DNA from: Leptolyngbya sp. PCC 6406
GTDB lineage: Bacteria > Cyanobacteriota > Cyanobacteriia > Phormidesmidales > Phormidesmidaceae
DNA length: 64,000 nt
Direction of reading: 5' to 3'
NCBI RefSeq assembly: GCF_000332095.2
Contig: NZ_KI913949.1
Coordinates: 1,946,511-2,010,510 of the forward strand
Both the position numbers and the translations under genes were made by a program. The notes beneath the pieces are model-generated. The model saw only the letters and a program-made list of their open reading frames with translations, ran no database searches and was not told the origin of the DNA. Below, in pieces: positions 15,589 through 34,571 of the stretch (position 1 is the stretch's first letter; each line of letters opens with the position of its first letter).

Positions 15589-16437
15589 ATGTTTAATGCG
15601 ACCGAGATTCTAATTGCCGACTTTGTAGATAAGCTACGGGCAGGCTACCACCGTACCTACGGTGGCATGAAGCCCGACTATGAAGACATCATTGCCTGGG
15701 CAGGCAGCATGGCATTAGAGAATATTGCCAATAGCGATGCCCTTTATCACAATGTTGAGCACACCATCTTGGTTGCCCTAGTGGGGCAGGAAATGCTGCG
15801 CGGCAAACACATCCGAGAGGGGGGCGTCAGTTGTGATGATTGGCTGCACTTCATCATCGCCTTGGTCTGCCACGACATTGGCTACGTGAAAGGGGTCTGC
15901 CGCGACGATCGCGATCGTGAACATCTCTACGCCACCGGCAAGGGGGAAGAGATGGTAGAACTACGCCCCGGCTCCTCCGATGCCTCCCTCACCCCTTACC
16001 ATGTTGATCGGGGTAAGCGCTTTATCGAAGAACGCTTTGGGGGCAACCGCATCATTGACGCCGAATGCATCAAGCGCAATGTGGAATTAACCCGCTTCCC
16101 CGTCCCTAAGGAAGAGGATCACCAGGATACCCGCCGTTTCCCCGGACTGGTGCGGGCTGCGGATCTGATTGGGCAGTTAAGCGATCCCCGCTACCTGAAA
16201 AAGATTGGGGCGCTGTTCTACGAGTTTGAAGAAACAGGGCAGAACAAGTACCTGAACTACCAGCACCCCGACGATCTCCGCCGCAACTACCCTAAGTTCT
16301 ACTGGAATGTGGTTCATCCCTACATCCAGGATGGGTTGCGGTATCTTTCCCTAACCCAAGAGGGCAAGCAGATCATCGCCAACCTCTATTCCAATGTGTT
16401 TATGGTGGAAAACGAAAACACCATTGTGGCAACCTAA
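15589..16437 (+). CDS. HD-domain metal-dependent phosphohydrolase (Npun_R2479-like)
   Basis: A 282-residue HD-superfamily protein of a type widely kept in cyanobacteria. Metal ligands are visible as YHNVEHT (His), VCHDIGYVKG (the HD pair) and a later RAADLIGQ (Asp). HD proteins hydrolyse phosphoesters or (cyclic) nucleotides, but this subfamily has no settled substrate. ATG 15589 is preceded by GTGAGCATCGAGC, a weak ribosome site. The ABC permease gene starts 30 bp after its stop on the same strand. Confidence 0.88.
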   Translation: MFNATEILIADFVDKLRAGYHRTYGGMKPDYEDIIAWAGSMALENIANSDALYHNVEHTILVALVGQEMLRGKHIREGGVSCDDWLHFIIALVCHDIGYVKGVCRDDRDREHLYATGKGEEMVELRPGSSDASLTPYHVDRGKRFIEERFGGNRIIDAECIKRNVELTRFPVPKEEDHQDTRRFPGLVRAADLIGQLSDPRYLKKIGALFYEFEETGQNKYLNYQHPDDLRRNYPKFYWNVVHPYIQDGLRYLSLTQEGKQIIANLYSNVFMVENENTIVAT

Positions 16438-18798: not shown

Positions 18799-20754
18799 AT
18801 GCTGGATATTGAATCGAGTATTTATACTCGTCTTGGTGAATCAACAGATTCTGGGCCTTCATCCTCTTTTTTAAGTGCCACAGAACCAGTGATTCTGGAA
18901 TATGAAAATAGCTCAGAAAATTTGTTATTTACTCATCCAGCTATTTCGAGTCTGGATGTAGCTCAGACCCATGCCATTACCGTAGCTATCCCCACCTATA
19001 ATGGAGCCCAGCGATTACCCAGAGTCCTAGACCAGTTGCGATCGCAGATAGACCTTGACAACATTATCTGGGAAGTAATCGTTGCCGATAACAACAGCAC
19101 AGACGAAACGGCCACAGTTGTTCGCACCTACCAACAGGATTGGCCTGCCCACTCCAGCCTCCGCTACTGCTTCGCATCTGAGCAGGGAGCCTCCTTTGCC
19201 CGCCAACGAGCCGTTGAATTGGCCCGTGGTGAGCTGGTAGCCTTTCTAGATGATGACAATATTCCCGATCTGGATTGGGTAAAACAAGCCTACGAATTTG
19301 CCCAAGGTCGCCCAGAGGTAGGAGCCTTTGGTAGCCAGATCCATGGTGAGTTTGAAGGCGAGGTTCCCTCTGAGTTTGGAGAACTTTCATGCTTCCTGGC
19401 GATTACGGAACGGGGAAATGAGCCCCACTACTATGATCCCAAGTCCAAAGTCCTTCCCCCTGGAGCCGGCTTGGTGGTACGTCGGCAAGCTTGGCTGGAT
19501 AATGTACCTAAGCGTCTATTTCTCAATCACAAAGGGAAGGATGCAGGACTAGCCAGTGAAGACCTAGAGGCTATTCTCCATATCCAAAAAGCAGGATGGG
19601 GAATCTGGTACAACCCTACCATGGTGGTCCATCATCAAATTCCCAATGGGCGTCTCAAGCAAGACTATCTGGTCAAACTATTTCGCTGTGTTGGCCTCAG
19701 TCGCTTTTATATCCGCATGCTGGGGGTCAAAGATTGGCAACAGCCCTTATTGGTACCCGCCTATATTGCCAATGATCTGCGGCGGCTCGCCCTACATTGG
19801 CTCAAGCAGCGATCTCACCCTGACGCTCCTTTGGTAGCGGCTTGTAAACAGCAGTATTTGACAAGCACTTTGGCTAGTCCCCTCTTTTTATTGAAGAAAG
19901 CCTCCCAGGATGCTTGGCAACATTTTACGGCTACACCATCGGCAAATCGAGATCTCTGGTTGACGCGCTTGACCCAGGCGTTTGAGCAGGATCAATTCCA
20001 GCTTTATAGTCAATCAGTCATGACGGTGGATGGCAGAGAAACTCCCGCCCAAGCCCAGGCTGAGATCCTGCTGCGGGTAGTCGCCACGACTGATACTGGT
20101 GAGTCTCAACTGCTGCTACCCAGGTATTTCATGGTGGCAGCGACTGAGTTGGGCTTAACTCGCACCCTGGATTATTGGGTGATTCGGAAGTTTTTTTCAA
20201 CCCAGGCAGGGGCATCTACGGCTAGCCTCTGGAAGGCTGAAGACAACCTAGCCAATCCTAGTAGGGTTTACTCCCTAAACCTAACGCCTGCCAGCCTCAG
20301 TGATTCCCGCTTTGCCCCCTTTATTGCGGACCAACTGACCCGTTCAGGTCTACAGCCCAAGACCCTTTGTTTTGAAATTCCAGCAGCAGCGCTTGTAACC
20401 CATTCTCATGCGGCTATTCGACGTATCCATGAGTTGAAAGAATTGGGGTGCCAGATCGTCATTGACGATTGTCTTCAGCCTGCCCACTTGAGACAACTGC
20501 CAACAACGCTCCCCATCGACTACTACAAACTTAGTGGTCAACTGCTCCAATCTAGGAAAGCTCAACCTTCCCATGGTGTTAGCCAGACGCTAACAGGGAT
20601 GACCCAATGGGGGGTGGCCCGTAGCATTCAACCAATCATTAAGGGAGTAGAGACCCTATCCATGCTGCATCAAGTGCAACAGATAGGTATTCCCTACGCT
20701 CAAGGCTATACTTTGGCCAAGCCGCAACCACTCCACCTCGAAGGTCAGGTGTAA
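18799..20754 (+). CDS. HpsE-type family 2 glycosyltransferase fused to an EAL domain
   Basis: A 651-residue two-domain protein. Residues about 55-385 form a GT2 glycosyltransferase of the HpsE type (AITVAIPTYNGAQRLPRVLD, VADNNSTDET, FLDDDNIPDLDWV, GAFGSQIHGEFEG). Residues about 395-648 form an EAL (c-di-GMP phosphodiesterase-like) domain: FQLYSQSV, AEILLRVV (EAL-equivalent EIL), YSLNLTPASL (metal-site Asn), CFEIPAAA, VIDDCLQ (Asp pair), YYKLSG (Lys), IKGVETL, and YAQGYTLAKP. The usual AEGVE reads IKGVE, so one catalytic-region Glu is Lys, and DDFG reads DDCL. The domain may bind c-di-GMP more than cleave it. The next gene, a paralogous HpsE without EAL, starts 2 bp after the stop. Confidence 0.88.
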   Translation: MLDIESSIYTRLGESTDSGPSSSFLSATEPVILEYENSSENLLFTHPAISSLDVAQTHAITVAIPTYNGAQRLPRVLDQLRSQIDLDNIIWEVIVADNNSTDETATVVRTYQQDWPAHSSLRYCFASEQGASFARQRAVELARGELVAFLDDDNIPDLDWVKQAYEFAQGRPEVGAFGSQIHGEFEGEVPSEFGELSCFLAITERGNEPHYYDPKSKVLPPGAGLVVRRQAWLDNVPKRLFLNHKGKDAGLASEDLEAILHIQKAGWGIWYNPTMVVHHQIPNGRLKQDYLVKLFRCVGLSRFYIRMLGVKDWQQPLLVPAYIANDLRRLALHWLKQRSHPDAPLVAACKQQYLTSTLASPLFLLKKASQDAWQHFTATPSANRDLWLTRLTQAFEQDQFQLYSQSVMTVDGRETPAQAQAEILLRVVATTDTGESQLLLPRYFMVAATELGLTRTLDYWVIRKFFSTQAGASTASLWKAEDNLANPSRVYSLNLTPASLSDSRFAPFIADQLTRSGLQPKTLCFEIPAAALVTHSHAAIRRIHELKELGCQIVIDDCLQPAHLRQLPTTLPIDYYKLSGQLLQSRKAQPSHGVSQTLTGMTQWGVARSIQPIIKGVETLSMLHQVQQIGIPYAQGYTLAKPQPLHLEGQV

Positions 20755-20756
20755 GT

Positions 20757-21740
20757 ATGACGGAATTCACAGTAGCGATTCCCACCTTCAATGGAGCTAG
20801 CCGCATTATTCAAGTGCTGGATCGATTGCGATCGCAGCAAGATATCGAGTCTCTACAGTGGACAGTCATTGTGGTAGACAACAACAGCACCGACAACATT
20901 GCTGAGGTTCTGGAAACCTATAACAGCCAACACCCTCTCCCCTACGACCTTATCCACATCATCGAAAAGCAGCAAGGCGCAGCCTTCGCAAGACAAAAAG
21001 CGATCCAGGTTGCCTCCAGTAACTGGGTAGGATTCCTAGATGACGACGTCCTTCCCGCCCCCCACTGGGTCGCAAAGGCCATCGAATTTGCCCAACAAGC
21101 GACAAACATTGCCGTATTTGGGGGACAAATTCACGGCGACTTTGAAGTGTCACCCCCAGAAAATTTTGGCCGGATTCAGTCCTTTCTGGCTATTCGTGAA
21201 CGTGGCAATAGCCCCCATCAATACGATCCCGTTCAGCTTATCCTGCCCCCCTCAGCCGCCTGGGTTGTACATCGTCAAGCATGGTTGGCCGCTGTCCCTC
21301 CCTGCCCTACCCTCAGCGGCAGAGTCAAAGGCTCCATGGTACAAGGGGATGACTATGAGCCTTTGTTGTATCTACATCAAGCTGGTTGGGAAATTTGGTA
21401 CAACCCCACTATGCATGTTCATCATCACATCCCGAGTTGGCGACTAGAGCGAGATTATCTTATGGCTCTAAGTCGTGGCTGTGGTCTCTGTATTTGTAGC
21501 CTACGGATGATGAATACCTCCCTTTGGCAAAAACCCATTGTTTTTGCGAAGATTACTATGGGATCCCTTAAGCGTCTTTGCCGGCATTGGATACAGTATC
21601 GCAAACAAACTAAATTCGACTTAGTTCTCGCCTGTGAGCGAGCCTTTTTCACAAGTAGCTTCTTAAGTTCATTCTATTTTGTTTGGAATAAAATCATGCC
21701 AAAGCAACATCAATTATCAGCCACCAAAAAATCATACTAG
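20757..21740 (+). CDS. hpsE: Hormogonium-polysaccharide-type glycosyltransferase HpsE
   Basis: A 327-residue GT2-family glycosyltransferase with FTVAIPTFNGASRIIQVLD, VVDNNSTDN, GFLDDDVLPAPHWV (nucleotide-sugar DxD region) and IHGDFEVSPPENFGRI, which match the HpsE group of cyanobacterial exopolysaccharide enzymes. It is clearly paralogous to the preceding GT domain, which suggests a local duplication followed by fusion of one copy to EAL. ATG 20757 is 2 bp after the upstream stop, so the two are an operon. The donor and acceptor sugars are unknown. Confidence 0.87.
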   Translation: MTEFTVAIPTFNGASRIIQVLDRLRSQQDIESLQWTVIVVDNNSTDNIAEVLETYNSQHPLPYDLIHIIEKQQGAAFARQKAIQVASSNWVGFLDDDVLPAPHWVAKAIEFAQQATNIAVFGGQIHGDFEVSPPENFGRIQSFLAIRERGNSPHQYDPVQLILPPSAAWVVHRQAWLAAVPPCPTLSGRVKGSMVQGDDYEPLLYLHQAGWEIWYNPTMHVHHHIPSWRLERDYLMALSRGCGLCICSLRMMNTSLWQKPIVFAKITMGSLKRLCRHWIQYRKQTKFDLVLACERAFFTSSFLSSFYFVWNKIMPKQHQLSATKKSY

Positions 21741-21781: not shown

Positions 21782-23458
21782 ATGGGTGAACCGGTTTTAG
21801 CGATTGGCCTAGATGCTGCCGATCCCCAACTCTTAGAAGAGTGGATGGACGCTGGACATTTGCCTAATCTCAATAGAATCAGACAACAAGGGAGCTATGG
21901 TCGCCTTGGTAACACAGTAAATTATAATAACATTCCCACAGAAACGTCATCTACCGAGCGTTTATGGGTCATGTTTAGTACTGGTTGCTTGCCCAATAAG
22001 ACAGGATATTGGAGTCCAGTAAAGTACTCTCCTCAGGATTATAGTGTCGAACATGACACCATCCACGGAGCTTACAACTTCAAGGAATTCTCCCCCTTCT
22101 ATGCTCTAGGTCAAGACTATAGGGTTGCCACCTTTGACATTCCAGTATCTGCTCTTTCCGATAACCTTAATGGTCTTCAAATTTTAGGATGGGGGGGCCA
22201 TGCTCCCCATACGCCCAGTCATTCATTACCAGCAGATTTATTGCCAGACATCATTCAACGCTACGGTAAAAATCCACTGCTGCACCAAGATTATGGCAAC
22301 TGGTGGGATCAGTCCTATCGCGATCGCACTCAAAAAGCTCTCCAGGAAAGTATTACTAAGCGTATTGCAATCTGCAAAGAACTGCTACAGAAAGAAGCTT
22401 GGGATTTGTTTATAGCTGTCTTTGGAGAAACCCATACTGCTGGCCATGACTTCTGGCATCTCAGTCAACCCGACCACCCTCTACATCAAAGACAAGAAGG
22501 GCAGGCAGATCCCCTTTTAGCCACCTTTCAGCAAATCGATCAGGGCATTGGTGAGTTAGAAGCGCTTATTCCCGAATCTGCTCACTTGCTTGTATTTGCT
22601 GTCCATGGCATGGGTAACAATGTCACAGATATGTTCAGTATGACTTTCTTGCCCGAGTTTTTGTACCGATACAACTTTCCTGGTAGTTACGGTCTTGCTC
22701 GTGGCAATGTCAATCGCCAACCCCCAGCGATCAACTTCAAACCCCACCGTAAAAGTTGGTCAGGAGAAGTCTGGCAAAAACGATATGACTCTAATCCCCT
22801 AAAACGTTGGCTGATGCCCTGGATCCCCAGTAAGTTTGATCACTACCTAAAGTCAGACACGACTCCTGAGCTAACGTCGCCCTATATTCTACGCCAACAG
22901 GGAATTGCTCTAAATTGGATGCCAGCCTTGTGGTACAAGAACCTTTGGCCCAAAATGAAGGCATTTGCCTTGCCAGCGTTTGCCGCTGGACATATTCGCA
23001 TTAACTTGAAAAATCGGGATAGCCAAGGAATCGTTCAGCCCCAAGACTATGAAGCTCTATGCAAGGAAATCACAGATCACCTGCACCAGCTTAAAGATGG
23101 CCGCACAGGTCAACCCATTGTCCAGAAAGTCGTTAGAACTCGAAGTTACGAAAATTGTCTGAGTAATGACAGTACCCTACCCGATGCCGACTTAGTGGTG
23201 CTGTGGAGAGATCAACCCAGTGATGTCGTAGATAGCCCGGAATTTGGACGTATTGGGCCACTGACTTATTACCGGACTGGTGGCCATCGTCCCGATGGCT
23301 TTTTGATGATTAAGGGGACAAAGGTCAAAGCAGGGCATAGGTTCGCTAATGCTCAAATTATTGATATTGGCCTAACTATTCAACATCTCCTCAAGGCTAA
23401 AATTAGCTCCACAGTAGATGGAAAATCCCTACTAAAATCCGAGACAAAACCTTGTTAA
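21782..23458 (+). CDS. Type I phosphodiesterase / alkaline-phosphatase-superfamily protein
   Basis: A 558-residue protein of the alkaline phosphatase superfamily (type I phosphodiesterase/nucleotide pyrophosphatase). AIGLDAADPQLLEEWMDAGHLPNLNRI is the metal-binding start, and the likely nucleophile is a Thr/Ser in IPTETSSTERLWVM. Later ligand-like segments are FGETHTAGHDFWH, VFAVHGMGNNVTD and YRTGGHRPDGFLM. No signal peptide is visible, so it may act in the cytoplasm. In this context it could transfer or remove a phosphate-linked substituent on a polysaccharide intermediate; that is inference. ATG 21782 follows the hpsE stop by 41 bp. Confidence 0.82.
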   Translation: MGEPVLAIGLDAADPQLLEEWMDAGHLPNLNRIRQQGSYGRLGNTVNYNNIPTETSSTERLWVMFSTGCLPNKTGYWSPVKYSPQDYSVEHDTIHGAYNFKEFSPFYALGQDYRVATFDIPVSALSDNLNGLQILGWGGHAPHTPSHSLPADLLPDIIQRYGKNPLLHQDYGNWWDQSYRDRTQKALQESITKRIAICKELLQKEAWDLFIAVFGETHTAGHDFWHLSQPDHPLHQRQEGQADPLLATFQQIDQGIGELEALIPESAHLLVFAVHGMGNNVTDMFSMTFLPEFLYRYNFPGSYGLARGNVNRQPPAINFKPHRKSWSGEVWQKRYDSNPLKRWLMPWIPSKFDHYLKSDTTPELTSPYILRQQGIALNWMPALWYKNLWPKMKAFALPAFAAGHIRINLKNRDSQGIVQPQDYEALCKEITDHLHQLKDGRTGQPIVQKVVRTRSYENCLSNDSTLPDADLVVLWRDQPSDVVDSPEFGRIGPLTYYRTGGHRPDGFLMIKGTKVKAGHRFANAQIIDIGLTIQHLLKAKISSTVDGKSLLKSETKPC

Positions 23459-23615: not shown

Positions 23616-24521
23616 ATGCTAGCCAAAATTAAGCAAAAGTTGTATGGATTGTCTAATGACATTTTGTATCGTTTCGATTTAGCCATAAATAGTAAGAATC
23701 TACCTCTGCTTTCCAAGGCTGATCTCAATATAGTTGATCAACTTAAGAAGGAAGGGGTAGTGATGACCTCTTTGGAAGATTTGGCAATTCCTCTGACACC
23801 TCAGCTCAAAAAAGCTGCTAGTTATCTAGTGGAAGATCTAGAGAATAACGGAGTTACTACTCCACCTTCACAAAATAAAAAAGAAGCTTTTAGCCACTCC
23901 TTGCCAATTGATCCCATAAAGATTTCCCAAGAACACCCGGAAATCTTTCTTTGGGGATTGGAAGAACGAATTCTCGATATTCTAGATTATTATATCGGCG
24001 TTCCTAGCGTTTGCCATGGCGTTAATATACGCCGAGATATTGTTGATGGAAAACAAATCGGAACTCGTTACTGGCATATGGATGGAGAGGATCGAAATGT
24101 TGTCAAGATTATTATTTACTTGAGTGATGTGGATCATCACTGTGGGCCATTTGAATATATACCTAAATCCCTTACTCCCTCCTACAAAACCTTTAAGAAT
24201 ATAAATTACACTATCACCAATGAGGATATGGAGAGAGTTATTCCCGCTTCTCAATGGCGACAATGTATAGGTAGAGTGGGCACAGTGATTTTGGTTGATA
24301 CCGGCCAGGTTTTTCATCATGGAAAGATTCCTGAAGCTGCGAGGACAGCTATTTTCTACGGCTATACCTCCCATCGACCTAAACGGCCTGAACTCTGTCA
24401 GTCTTCATCTTTCCGGAAGGGCTTACCCTATTTTACCCACCCTCTTTCTGAAAGACAACGAAAAGCAATATGGCATAGTCAAGATTTACCTTCTAATACG
24501 TTCTACTCAGAAGAATCATAG
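23616..24521 (+). CDS. PhyH-like Fe(II)/2-oxoglutarate dioxygenase
   Basis: A 301-residue protein with the facial triad of phytanoyl-CoA dioxygenase-like enzymes: RYWHMDGED (HxD), and FHHGKIPEAARTAIFYGY with the distal His and the 2-oxoglutarate-binding Arg. The family hydroxylates diverse small molecules or sugar derivatives; the substrate here is unknown. AGGAGAAG before ATG 23616 is a good ribosome site. Codon use and base composition are AT-rich, as in the following two genes and unlike the flanks, suggesting acquisition. Confidence 0.82.
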   Translation: MLAKIKQKLYGLSNDILYRFDLAINSKNLPLLSKADLNIVDQLKKEGVVMTSLEDLAIPLTPQLKKAASYLVEDLENNGVTTPPSQNKKEAFSHSLPIDPIKISQEHPEIFLWGLEERILDILDYYIGVPSVCHGVNIRRDIVDGKQIGTRYWHMDGEDRNVVKIIIYLSDVDHHCGPFEYIPKSLTPSYKTFKNINYTITNEDMERVIPASQWRQCIGRVGTVILVDTGQVFHHGKIPEAARTAIFYGYTSHRPKRPELCQSSSFRKGLPYFTHPLSERQRKAIWHSQDLPSNTFYSEES

Positions 24522-24606: not shown

Positions 24607-27600
24607 ATGGTTCATCAACAAAGCTTGAAATCCGATCAACTTACTAAAACTACAAAGCCTAGCCAATCGACACCTGCACTAGCAATCGCTAGTACTTTCA
24701 CTATTGAACCGATCAGGAATTCTCTCAATTTTTGGATCGAGGAATTATCTCTATCTCTAAAGATCAGTTTTAGTGGGTACAACCAGATTTTTCAGGAGCT
24801 AATCGATCCGAATAGTTTATTCTCTAAAAATGCTCATGGTTGCAACGTTATTTTAATTCGTCTGGAAGATTGGCTCAGAGATCATTCGAATTCTGACATT
24901 GACATCATAGAGGAAGATCTTAAACGCAACATTGATGATTTGTCAGCAGCCTTGGTTTCGTCTTCTAGCCGGTGTCAGGCTCCACATATTGTCATATTTT
25001 GCCCTCATACTCCCTTTGGAGAAGCCAGAAATTCTGAAAGTATAAATTTGCTAAATAATATATCCTTTTTGGCAATTGAAAGGATTAAGTCTATTGATGG
25101 TATCTATGTCATCACAGCCACCAACATTCATCACTGGTATCCATGTGTCAATTATTATAATCGCCGCACAGACGAATTAGGACACATCCCCTTTACCCCA
25201 GAGTATTTCTCTGCCTTAGGCACCACAATTATTCGCAAATATCAATCTCTAACCTGTAGTCCCTACAAGGTAATTGTGCTTGACTGCGATCAAACTCTAT
25301 GGAAAGGAGTTTGTGGAGAAGATGGGCCTCAAGGTATTGTCATCGATCCAGCGCGTCAATTTCTCCAAGAATTCATGGTCAAACAGACAGAACAAGGAAT
25401 GTTGATCAGCCTATGCAGTAAAAATGTAGAGGAAGATGTTATTCGAGTTTATGATGTTCGCTCAGATATGCCTTTGCAAAGAGAGCATATCGTAGCCTGG
25501 CGAATTAACTGGCAACCTAAATCAGAAAATATCAGATCTCTAGCGCAAGAACTGAATTTAGGACTCGATAGTTTTATTTTTATCGATGATAATCCAGTGG
25601 AATGCTCGGAGGTAATGGCTAACTGTCCTGAAGTATTAACCCTACAGTTACCTCAGAAAATTGATGAAATCCCCAATTTCTTAGAGCATGTCTGGGCTTT
25701 TGATCATTCCAAGGTGGCTACAGGAGCTGATTTGCAGCGAACCTTAATGTACAAACAAAATCTAGAACGTGAGCGTGTTCGTAGCCAAGCTTTGGATTTT
25801 GAAGAATTTCTAAATGGTTTGGATCTCCAGGTTTCGATCTTGCCAATGAAACCTAATCAACTTGTTAGAGTGGCTCAGTTAACGCAACGCACTAACCAGT
25901 TCAACGCTACAACTATTCGACGCTCCGAATCCACAATTCAACAGCTTTGTGCCCAAGGAGGGTATCAATTCTTGACAGTGGATGTTAAAGATCGCTTTGG
26001 AGATTATGGCTTAGTTGGTACTGTGATTTATGGAATTCAGAATAGCAGTTTGGAAGTTGATACCTTTCTGCTAAGTTGTCGTGTCCTTGGGCGAAGTGTT
26101 GAATATCGAATGCTAGCTGAACTGGGAAGAATTGCCCTTGAACAAAACCTTGATAGAGTTAATATACCCTATATTTATTCTGCCAAAAATCAACCTCTAA
26201 TAGATTTTCTAAACAAAATTGGTGGGGAATTTTCTCTGTCGACATCCCAGGGAATAATTTTTAGCTTTCCCGCAGACTATGCCAGATCGATAAAATTAAC
26301 TTCTGATGATGATCAACCTATTATAAAGACGAGTAAAGAGTCGCAATCAGAATCCTCTGTCACGCTAAAAGCAGAGGATAGTGAATCTAATCCTATGGAT
26401 AAAATCTCACCATCCTCTCATATTGATAAGATTAGCGCTATCGATAGAGTGGCTAATTGTCTATCCCAACTAGAAGCCATCCATGCTGCGGTTGAGAAGT
26501 ATCGCAAAGGGTTATGCCTACAATCTCGCCAACAAAAAGATCCACCTCGTAATCAGGTTGAGAGCGCACTAGTGGAAATATGGGGAAAGGTTCTTGGTCT
26601 TGAGCAAGTTGGCATTCATGAAGATTACTTTGATATTGGAGGAGATTCATTGCTGGCTGTCAGTTTATTTGTGGAGATCGAGGATGCTTTTCAAAAAAAG
26701 CTTCCCATGACGGTGTTATTAGAATCTCCTACCATAGAGAAACTTGGTAGAAAGATCCTGGAAACAGAGACTATCCAAACATCCTGGCCATCTCTCATTA
26801 AACTAAGATCGAATGGTACTGGCCCCTCTCTTTTCATGGTTCACGGCGGTTTTGGTGATGTACTTGGGCTAGTTACCTTGGAAAAGCATTTGGATACTAA
26901 TTATTCTTTCTACGCTTTACAGGGTATTGGGCTAGATGGCATTCAGAACTTGCCCCCATCTATTGAAGCAATAGCTAGCTGCTTCATTGACGAGATTAAA
27001 TTGGTACAGCCTCAAGGCCCTTATTTTCTGGGAGGCCAGTGCTCAGGGGGTACTATCGCCTATGAGATGGCTCAACAGCTTCAACAAGGAGGAGATCACG
27101 TTGAATTTTTAGCCCTCTTAGATACCCCTTATCCTCCATTGACAAATTACTTTGCTGAGCGCCTCCGCTTTTATCAAAGTAATCGGCCTCTACTTTATCA
27201 ACCTAGTCAAGCCTTATACTATGTCTTCACCTGCTTTAACCTGCGTTGGAAGGTGGCTTACCATATACGACAGTTTCAAAGGAGGAGCTTGAAAGAAAAG
27301 CGAGAATATCTATATAGTTATGGTCAGCGTTTTGTTAAAGTTTTAATCAAGAAAATGCACTTACCACTTCTCAATAAAAAGAGAGATCCCCATCCCTTTC
27401 CCGTGCAAAACAATTTGGCTATGGGAGATAGCGAGGCAACAGTTCCATCACTAGGGTCTACAGTACAGACGAACTCCGATTCAGAGATCAATACAATTTC
27501 TGGTTCTTCCCTCTTCCCTCGCCATAGTTCAGATCGAAAACACGCCCTTATAAAGCATCGTTTTTTTGAGGATTTGAATCAGGCGCTATCGATTTACAAG

Positions 27601-27882
27601 CCTAAGCCCTATGATGGTAAAATAGCCTACTTCCTACCTTTATTAAATAGCTATGCAGCAACATGTTCTCCTAAGAATTGGCGAGCTTTCTTTCCCCATG
27701 ATAAACCTGTGTCAGCTTTCCCAAGTTTAAGCTTGGGTTGGGATAAAGTGGCGAAAAAAGGACTGGAAATACACGAGTTTGAGGGCACTCATATTGGCAT
27801 GATTCGCGAACCACAGGTGAAATTATTGGCGGAGAAGATCAACTCCTGTCTAAATTTGGATGCGACAGAGTTATTTGATTAA
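24607..27882 (+). CDS. FkbH-like HAD phosphatase - acyl carrier - thioesterase trifunctional protein
   Basis: A 1091-residue assembly-line protein. Residues about 1-215 form an N-terminal region usual for long FkbH proteins; residues about 220-560 are HAD-IIIC/FkbH (VIVLDCDQTLWKGVCGEDG, LISLCSKN, FIFIDDNPVECSEV, FGDYGLVGTVIY). FkbH enzymes load a glyceryl unit from 1,3-bisphosphoglycerate onto a carrier protein. A carrier domain follows at about 645-715 (FDIGGDSLLAVSL, phosphopantetheine Ser), then an alpha/beta thioesterase at about 735-1085: FMVHGGFGDV, nucleophile elbow GGQCSGG with Cys in the nucleophile place, and EGTHIGMI with the likely His. A glyceryl group could thus be made, held and passed on by one protein. 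AT-rich; no HIP1 site within it. Confidence 0.88.
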   Translation: MVHQQSLKSDQLTKTTKPSQSTPALAIASTFTIEPIRNSLNFWIEELSLSLKISFSGYNQIFQELIDPNSLFSKNAHGCNVILIRLEDWLRDHSNSDIDIIEEDLKRNIDDLSAALVSSSSRCQAPHIVIFCPHTPFGEARNSESINLLNNISFLAIERIKSIDGIYVITATNIHHWYPCVNYYNRRTDELGHIPFTPEYFSALGTTIIRKYQSLTCSPYKVIVLDCDQTLWKGVCGEDGPQGIVIDPARQFLQEFMVKQTEQGMLISLCSKNVEEDVIRVYDVRSDMPLQREHIVAWRINWQPKSENIRSLAQELNLGLDSFIFIDDNPVECSEVMANCPEVLTLQLPQKIDEIPNFLEHVWAFDHSKVATGADLQRTLMYKQNLERERVRSQALDFEEFLNGLDLQVSILPMKPNQLVRVAQLTQRTNQFNATTIRRSESTIQQLCAQGGYQFLTVDVKDRFGDYGLVGTVIYGIQNSSLEVDTFLLSCRVLGRSVEYRMLAELGRIALEQNLDRVNIPYIYSAKNQPLIDFLNKIGGEFSLSTSQGIIFSFPADYARSIKLTSDDDQPIIKTSKESQSESSVTLKAEDSESNPMDKISPSSHIDKISAIDRVANCLSQLEAIHAAVEKYRKGLCLQSRQQKDPPRNQVESALVEIWGKVLGLEQVGIHEDYFDIGGDSLLAVSLFVEIEDAFQKKLPMTVLLESPTIEKLGRKILETETIQTSWPSLIKLRSNGTGPSLFMVHGGFGDVLGLVTLEKHLDTNYSFYALQGIGLDGIQNLPPSIEAIASCFIDEIKLVQPQGPYFLGGQCSGGTIAYEMAQQLQQGGDHVEFLALLDTPYPPLTNYFAERLRFYQSNRPLLYQPSQALYYVFTCFNLRWKVAYHIRQFQRRSLKEKREYLYSYGQRFVKVLIKKMHLPLLNKKRDPHPFPVQNNLAMGDSEATVPSLGSTVQTNSDSEINTISGSSLFPRHSSDRKHALIKHRFFEDLNQALSIYKPKPYDGKIAYFLPLLNSYAATCSPKNWRAFFPHDKPVSAFPSLSLGWDKVAKKGLEIHEFEGTHIGMIREPQVKLLAEKINSCLNLDATELFD

Positions 27883-33308: not shown

Positions 33309-33398
33309 CATATGTTGGGCCTGAAAACCTCGGAGGTCTTTGACAGGACTTATTACAATGACCCCAGAAGCAGTTGCAGTTGCATGGAGGGTCTCACT

Positions 33399-34571
33399 AT
33401 GGCAGAAAATTTACTCACCCAACTCCGGACGATGACCGTCGTTGTGGCCGATACGGGGGATTTGCAGGCGATCGAAACCTTCACTCCCCAAGATGCGACG
33501 ACGAACCCGTCCCTGATTACCGCTGCGGCTCAGATGCCCCAGTACCAAGACATTGTGGATGAAACCCTGATCAAAGCCCGTCAGGATGCGGGGTCTGGGG
33601 TATCGGATAAGGATGTGGCCAATATTGCCTTTACCCGGCTGGCGGTGGCCTTTGGGCTCAAGATTCTCAAGATTGTGCCGGGGCGGGTGTCTACGGAGGT
33701 GGATGCGCGGTTGTCCTACGACACAGAGGCGACGATTGCGACGGCCCGTGACATTATTGCCCAGTATGAGGCGGCGGGGGTGGGGCGCGATCGCGTTTTG
33801 ATCAAGATCGCCTCCACCTGGGAAGGTATCCGCGCTGCGGAAGTGTTGGAAAAGGAAGGCATCCACTGTAACCTCACTCTGCTGTTTGGCCTGCACCAGG
33901 CCATTGCCTGTGCTGAAGCTGGGGTGACCCTCATTTCCCCCTTTGTGGGCCGCATCCTCGACTGGTATAAGCAGGAAACCGGACGGGACTATGCCCCCAC
34001 CGAGGATCCGGGGGTGCTGTCGGTGACGGAGATTTACAACTACTACAAGAAATTTGGCTACGCCACTGAGGTGATGGGGGCCAGCTTCCGCAACATTGGC
34101 GAAATTCGGGAGTTGGCGGGCTGTGATCTGCTGACGATTTCCCCTAAGCTTCTGGCCCAACTGGAATCCGTCGAAGAACCCCTGCCCCGCAAGTTGGATG
34201 CCGCTAAGGCCGTCAATCTGGATATTGAGCCCATCCCCATGGATCAGGCCACCTTTGAGCGGATGCATGGGGAGGATGCCATGGCCTCGGCCAAGCTGGA
34301 TGAGGGCATCAAGGGCTTTAGCAAGGCTCTGGAAACCCTGGAAAAGCTCTTGGCGGAGCGCCTGTGCAAGCGTCTGGAGGGCAAGGATTTTGTCACCCAT
34401 GCGGCGGCGGATCTGTTCCACGCCTACGACTTGGATGGCGATGGCTTCATCACCCGCGAGGAGTGGCTGGGTACCGATGCGGTATTTGATGCCCTGGATG
34501 CGGACCACGATGGCAAAGTTACCCCTCAAGAAGTGAGTGCGGGCCTCGGCGGCGCATTTCAAACAGTGTAG
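33399..34571 (+). CDS. tal: Transaldolase with C-terminal EF-hand pair
   Basis: A 390-residue transaldolase of the pentose phosphate pathway (moves dihydroxyacetone between sugar phosphates). [20 protein letters not shown] (Schiff-base Lys), and [29 protein letters not shown] are intact in the barrel; a tail at about 345-388 adds two EF-hand loops ([26 protein letters not shown]), an arrangement known in cyanobacterial transaldolases. I start at ATG 33399 (MAENLLTQL); upstream in-frame codons from 33312 overlap the terminator repeat and look non-coding. A Ca2+ role is suggested by the loops only. Confidence 0.95.

Follow-up and report, generated by a model that had tools for sequence, protein, structure and literature searches.

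The window, a 64,000-nucleotide stretch of the Leptolyngbya sp. PCC 6406 genome, contains an hpsE-EAL fusion gene that reads as one open reading frame from 18799 to 20754 on the + strand, encodes 651 amino acids and ends in a TAA stop at 20752–20754. Residues 60–363 matched the HpsE family NF038302 with 444.7 bits (curated cut-off 300), and the same half also matched the Pfam GT2 glycosyltransferase family. Residues 390–642 matched the EAL domain PF00563 with 114.2 bits (Pfam cut-off 31.3). The original prediction that an HpsE-type GT2 and an EAL domain stand in one chain was thus borne out. The acidic GT2 motifs, DDD 151–153 (DxD-type) and E254-D255, were invariant in 17 fused proteins. The next ATG, at 20757, lies 2 bp past the fusion stop. 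The features of the locus are as follows.

18799..20754, + strand: hpsE-EAL fusion gene, 651 aa (open reading frame, domain matches, orthologous fusions)
18799..18963, + strand: variable N-terminal extension, residues 1–55, possibly not all translated (pLDDT, GC3, lack of conservation)
18976..19887, + strand: HpsE-type GT2 domain, residues 60–363 (NF038302, Pfam GT2, DDD 151–153, E254-D255)
19888..19965, + strand: linker, residues 364–389, poorly conserved (model secondary structure)
19966..20724, + strand: EAL domain, residues 390–642 (PF00563 at 114.2 bits and fold match)
20062..20076, + strand: ExLxR motif E422–R426, kept in 20 of 20 fused EALs
20278..20280, + strand: N494 (RocR N233), kept in 20 of 20 fused EALs
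20464..20487, + strand: D556, kept in 20 of 20, with the loop 6 motif DFGTGYSS destroyed (intact in 0 of 20)
20527..20535, + strand: K577, kept, with the KID aspartate replaced by S579 (RocR-numbered alignment)
20641..20643, + strand: K615 at the position of the catalytic Glu (RocR E352); Lys in 15 of the 17 lineage A members
20701..20706, + strand: Q635-G636 (RocR Q372), kept in 20 of 20 fused EALs
20757..21740, + strand: second HpsE-family glycosyltransferase without EAL, 327 aa, an anciently diverged tandem paralog (NF038302 at 454.3 bits; separate deep clade)
21782..23458, + strand: type I phosphodiesterase/nucleotide pyrophosphatase-like gene, third in the run (PF01663)

The start codon of the fusion gene is uncertain. 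Since residues 1–55 were unconserved among relatives, had pLDDT values mostly below 30 and were encoded with a GC3 of 0.218 as against 0.52 in the rest of the gene, translation may begin at a later codon. In an AlphaFold2 model built with 17 input sequences (mean pLDDT 78.3, pTM 0.78), the first half of the linker was the end of a long helix (residues 344–377) that runs out of the glycosyltransferase. A crude test for membrane spans gave a top 19-residue mean hydropathy of 1.13 for this protein and of at most 1.66 across the 17 fused proteins. As no 19-residue stretch of the chain exceeded 1.13, the fusion protein is probably a soluble or peripheral transferase and not a membrane synthase.

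The tandem order of fusion and plain glycosyltransferase was kept in most relatives. A PF01663 gene was also found downstream at loci L055, L057, L068 and L070, with a fragment at L072, and in Vasconcelosia and Leptolyngbya sp. PCC 7375 a third GT2-like gene stands there instead. The stand-alone paralog had been put forward as an internal control for the effect of the EAL domain. It is indeed an EAL-less HpsE transferase at the 2 bp spacing stated, but the two genes sit in two old, deep clades, and a recent duplication as the source of the downstream gene was rejected on this ground. Because the paralog is ancient, it is a weak control: a difference between the two could stem from transferase divergence as well as from the EAL domain.

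Several other genes of the window were noted. At 15589–16437, 2.4 kb upstream of the fusion, lies a gene for an HD-domain metalloprotein of the Npun_R2479 family (NF045583, 524.7 bits). A 301-residue open reading frame at 23616–24521 matched neither Pfam nor NCBIfam at the thresholds applied and looked by eye like a phytanoyl-CoA dioxygenase. The gene at 24607–27882, in the same run as the polysaccharide glycosyltransferases, joins an FkbH domain, a phosphopantetheine carrier and a thioesterase in one chain, and that at 33312–34568 encodes a transaldolase with a C-terminal pair of EF-hands. Elsewhere in this genome, an HpsE-like open reading frame (L002, G000:C1:2279070-2280125) has a match that continues past its TAG into a longer open frame.

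Judged by its sequence, the fused protein is an HpsE, and its product need not be the hormogonium polysaccharide. A Nostoc punctiforme strain with a deletion of hpsE-G lacks this polysaccharide (PMC12188702). At L078, a Nostoc locus, hpsA, hpsB and hpsC are followed by the plain hpsE pair. In the genome analysed here, hpsA occupies 3.379–3.383 Mb, a plain hpsE stands about 5 kb from it, and the fusion lies at 1.965 Mb, about 1.4 Mb off; no linkage of the fusion to hpsA, and no placement within an hpsA-G locus, was found in this genome. A search with the HpsB profile gave matches below the curated cut-off in 14 of the 14 genomes tried. Since the fused gene is far from hpsA, which has its own plain hpsE nearby, it probably serves an exopolysaccharide other than the hormogonium polysaccharide.

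The same domain order was then found elsewhere. Full-length, in-frame fusions were present in 17 of 65 Phormidesmidaceae genomes, spread over 9 of 14 genera; a further genome (G044), a low-coverage assembly, held the fusion in pieces. The remaining 47 gave no fusion match at this cut-off; they include the large genus g12, in which plain HpsE exists. In a scan of named genomes, the fusion was found in Leptolyngbya sp. PCC 7375, Adonisia turfae CCMR0081, Vasconcelosia minhoensis LEGE 07310, Phormidesmis priestleyi Ana and others, and two Xenococcaceae metagenome-assembled genomes (MAGs) carried an open GT-EAL frame. In a Trichodesmium MAG the GT part was frameshifted and yet joined to an EAL domain. 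Among 386 genomes sampled evenly across the phylum, only two gave a full-length match, both of them Phormidesmidaceae, so the fusion is rare outside this family. In Phormidesmis sp. RL_2_1 (L075, which is the G044 copy, and L027) the gene was broken on a contig of about 3x coverage, as a pseudogene or through sequencing errors.

The trees of both domains point to a single, old fusion event. The fused EALs formed one clade (100/98, ultrafast bootstrap/SH-aLRT) whose neighbours were RbdA-like cyanobacterial EALs and which was separate from the genome's 15 other EALs, and the fused transferases formed one clade (95/88) inside the clade of the first gene of the tandem hpsE pair. A quick GT tree had placed lineage B among plain genes, hinting at two separate fusions; the careful GT tree and the EAL tree reject this. 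Lineage A comprises 17 fused EALs including that in the window, and lineage B comprises three and is known from MAGs only.

We compared the residues of the 20 fused EALs with those of 35 unfused ones (15 of this genome and 20 of relatives) in RocR numbering, taken in part from PMC12943098. All 35 unfused domains keep E175, N233, E265, D295, D296, K316, D318, E352 and Q372. The pocket residues Q161, E175, R179, N233, D295, K316 and Q372 with the following Gly were kept in 20 of 20 fused EALs, and every one of the 20 lacked at least two catalytic residues. All 17 members of lineage A lack E352 (Lys in 15, Asn and Val in the remaining two) and D318, and loop 6 was also lost. Lineage B kept both E352 and D318, and had Ser or Gly for E265 and Lys or His for D296. 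No single catalytic residue was missing throughout the 20 proteins, only the loop 6 motif, DFG(T/A)GYSS, being degraded in all, which suggests, for these 20 sequences, two separate losses of catalysis, both later than the fusion.

The fusion protein in the window keeps E422, N494, E526, D556, D557, K577 and Q635. Beyond loop 6, which reads DDCLQPAH, two further acidic residues are gone: S579 stands at the KID aspartate and A529 at the second Glu of FExxE. The IKGVE noted in place of AEGVE is real, and puts K615 at the position of the catalytic Glu. The claim that most metal-site residues are present holds for the first five of the kept residues and fails for loop 6, S579 and A529. The domain passes the Pfam cut-off for EAL but lacks the ExxE catalytic Glu and the loop 6 of an EAL phosphodiesterase. 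Alanine at the E352 position abolished the activity of TBD1265 (PMC12943098), and for this reason c-di-GMP hydrolysis is not expected here; all fused EAL domains are predicted to be inactive as enzymes. A kept pocket with lost catalysis is the residue pattern of a receptor, as in LapD and FimX, degenerate EALs that bind c-di-GMP (PMC3032553). Of the c-di-GMP-type EAL originally proposed, the fold and the pocket remain, and the residues speak for a putative receptor and not for a phosphodiesterase.

The structure model agreed with an EAL fold. Residues 374–647 aligned with RbdA/PA0861 (Z 28.7, rmsd 2.8, 258 residues) and residues 385–648 with c-di-GMP-bound FimX (3hv8; Z 27.0, rmsd 2.3, 238 residues) in VIA-align, and FimX was among the closest solved structures in both the profile search and the fold search. 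For four pairs with usable dS, the dN/dS of the EAL part was 0.28, 0.09, 0.18 and 0.14 vs 0.29, 0.08, 0.05 and 0.10 for the GT part. For L020/L021 the EAL value was about three times that of the transferase, and in most pairs the two lay close together; these ratios indicate purifying selection on the EAL part. Mean pairwise identity was 38% in the EAL part vs 66% in the GT part, so that the EAL part diverged faster. The genome gave 24 GGDEF and 16 EAL matches, and as 15 intact EALs are encoded besides the fusion, together with the GGDEF domains, c-di-GMP is very likely made in this organism.

We favour, as probable, the reading of the protein as a soluble GT2 of the HpsE family whose C-terminal pseudo-EAL binds c-di-GMP without cleaving it and relays the binding to the transferase. 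Binding would alter the activity of the transferase or its docking to an assembly complex, placing one sugar-transfer step in an exopolysaccharide pathway under c-di-GMP control. By analogy with BcsA and NfrB, activation would be likelier than inhibition. Direct control of the transferase, which the original prediction proposed as allosteric, would fit a conserved GT2-EAL chain whose sequence points to a retained dinucleotide pocket and which is under selection. The faster evolution of the EAL part and the lack of the fusion in most genomes of the family count against a receptor.

The possibility exists that the EAL domain is a ligand-free module for protein-protein interaction or localisation, tethering the transferase to a partner with c-di-GMP uninvolved. 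Some EAL proteins, YdiV and BluF among them, work through partners without turnover, and loop 6 and many other EAL positions vary freely in the fused proteins. A pure scaffold would, however, be expected to lose the pocket residues, and it is precisely these that are invariant in 20 of 20, so we regard this explanation as rather unlikely. It is a good deal less likely that the domain binds something other than c-di-GMP, for instance pGpG, a nucleotide sugar or a different cyclic dinucleotide. The change to Lys at the catalytic position in 15 of 17 alters the charge of the pocket, and FimX has been crystallised with pGpG too (4afy), but Q161, E175, R179, K316 and Q372 are kept as in intact EALs and FimX.

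That the EAL domain is a passenger decaying after an accidental fusion we consider improbable. Its faster divergence and the fragmented gene in the low-coverage genome G044/L075 would agree with decay, whereas dN/dS values of 0.09–0.28, the invariant pocket and the preservation of a full-length domain across genera would not. Residual phosphodiesterase activity that lowers c-di-GMP locally could be imagined from the seven residues that the protein retains, and is very improbable: the Glu whose loss killed TBD1265 activity (PMC12943098) is missing in all of lineage A, E265 and D296 are gone from lineage B, and the loop 6 motif is destroyed. A missed frameshift or an assembly join of hpsE to a separate EAL gene, which the original prediction had named as one finding that would refute it, has next to no probability: 16 further Phormidesmidaceae genomes, as well as L068 and L070, carry the fusion in frame, which rules it out, and the window lies within a 5.47 Mb contig of a three-contig genome.

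For the putative c-di-GMP receptor fused to a transferase, the following history can be proposed tentatively, with somewhat less than even confidence. An active phosphodiesterase EAL would have been fused once to an HpsE transferase, and two lineages would then have lost catalysis independently while the pocket was kept. The result would be a soluble, non-synthase transferase gated by c-di-GMP, and a third kind of in-cis c-di-GMP domain after PilZ and MshEN. To our knowledge, the route from c-di-GMP to exopolysaccharide synthesis in cyanobacteria is poorly known, and a natural GT-EAL fusion directly names a candidate target. It also offers clear mutants (pocket vs catalytic positions) and a natural panel of fused and unfused HpsE proteins of the same clade. 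If the EAL domain binds c-di-GMP, it would show cleanly how, following a single fusion, an enzyme domain became a receptor on two occasions.

Compared with known systems, the transferase resembles HpsE (NF038302) in a GT2 domain above the curated cut-off and in having a second HpsE-type transferase next to it, as in Nostoc loci; it differs in its C-terminal EAL domain and in not standing beside hpsA in this genome. The EALs of RbdA (PA0861) and of its cyanobacterial kind gave the best sequence and fold match, and the fused EALs branch there, but the RbdA-kind domains keep the catalytic residues and the fused ones do not. With FimX and LapD the fused domain shares the EAL fold, the loss of catalytic residues and a partly kept pocket; the residues lost are others (FimX also lacks N233, E265 and D295), and the fusion has no GGDEF domain and is joined to a glycosyltransferase.

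A GT-EAL chain was not described in the open-access papers that were searched. BcsA is a membrane synthase that makes and exports its polymer. In-cis control of polysaccharide glycosyltransferases by c-di-GMP is already known through PilZ in BcsA, where this domain is in one chain with GT2, and through MshEN in NfrB (PMC8669469), and a novel c-di-GMP-binding domain has been reported for BgsA (PMC5567048). The fusion is like BcsA in joining a GT2 to a c-di-GMP-type domain, with binding predicted, and has an EAL where BcsA has PilZ. Escherichia coli NfrB has the same order, a glycosyltransferase and then a c-di-GMP domain in one chain, and this domain has been proposed to activate exopolysaccharide synthesis (PMC8669469). 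Its MshEN domain is, however, unrelated to EAL, and NfrB is an inner-membrane protein, whereas the fusion, in which c-di-GMP binding is predicted, has no evident membrane span.
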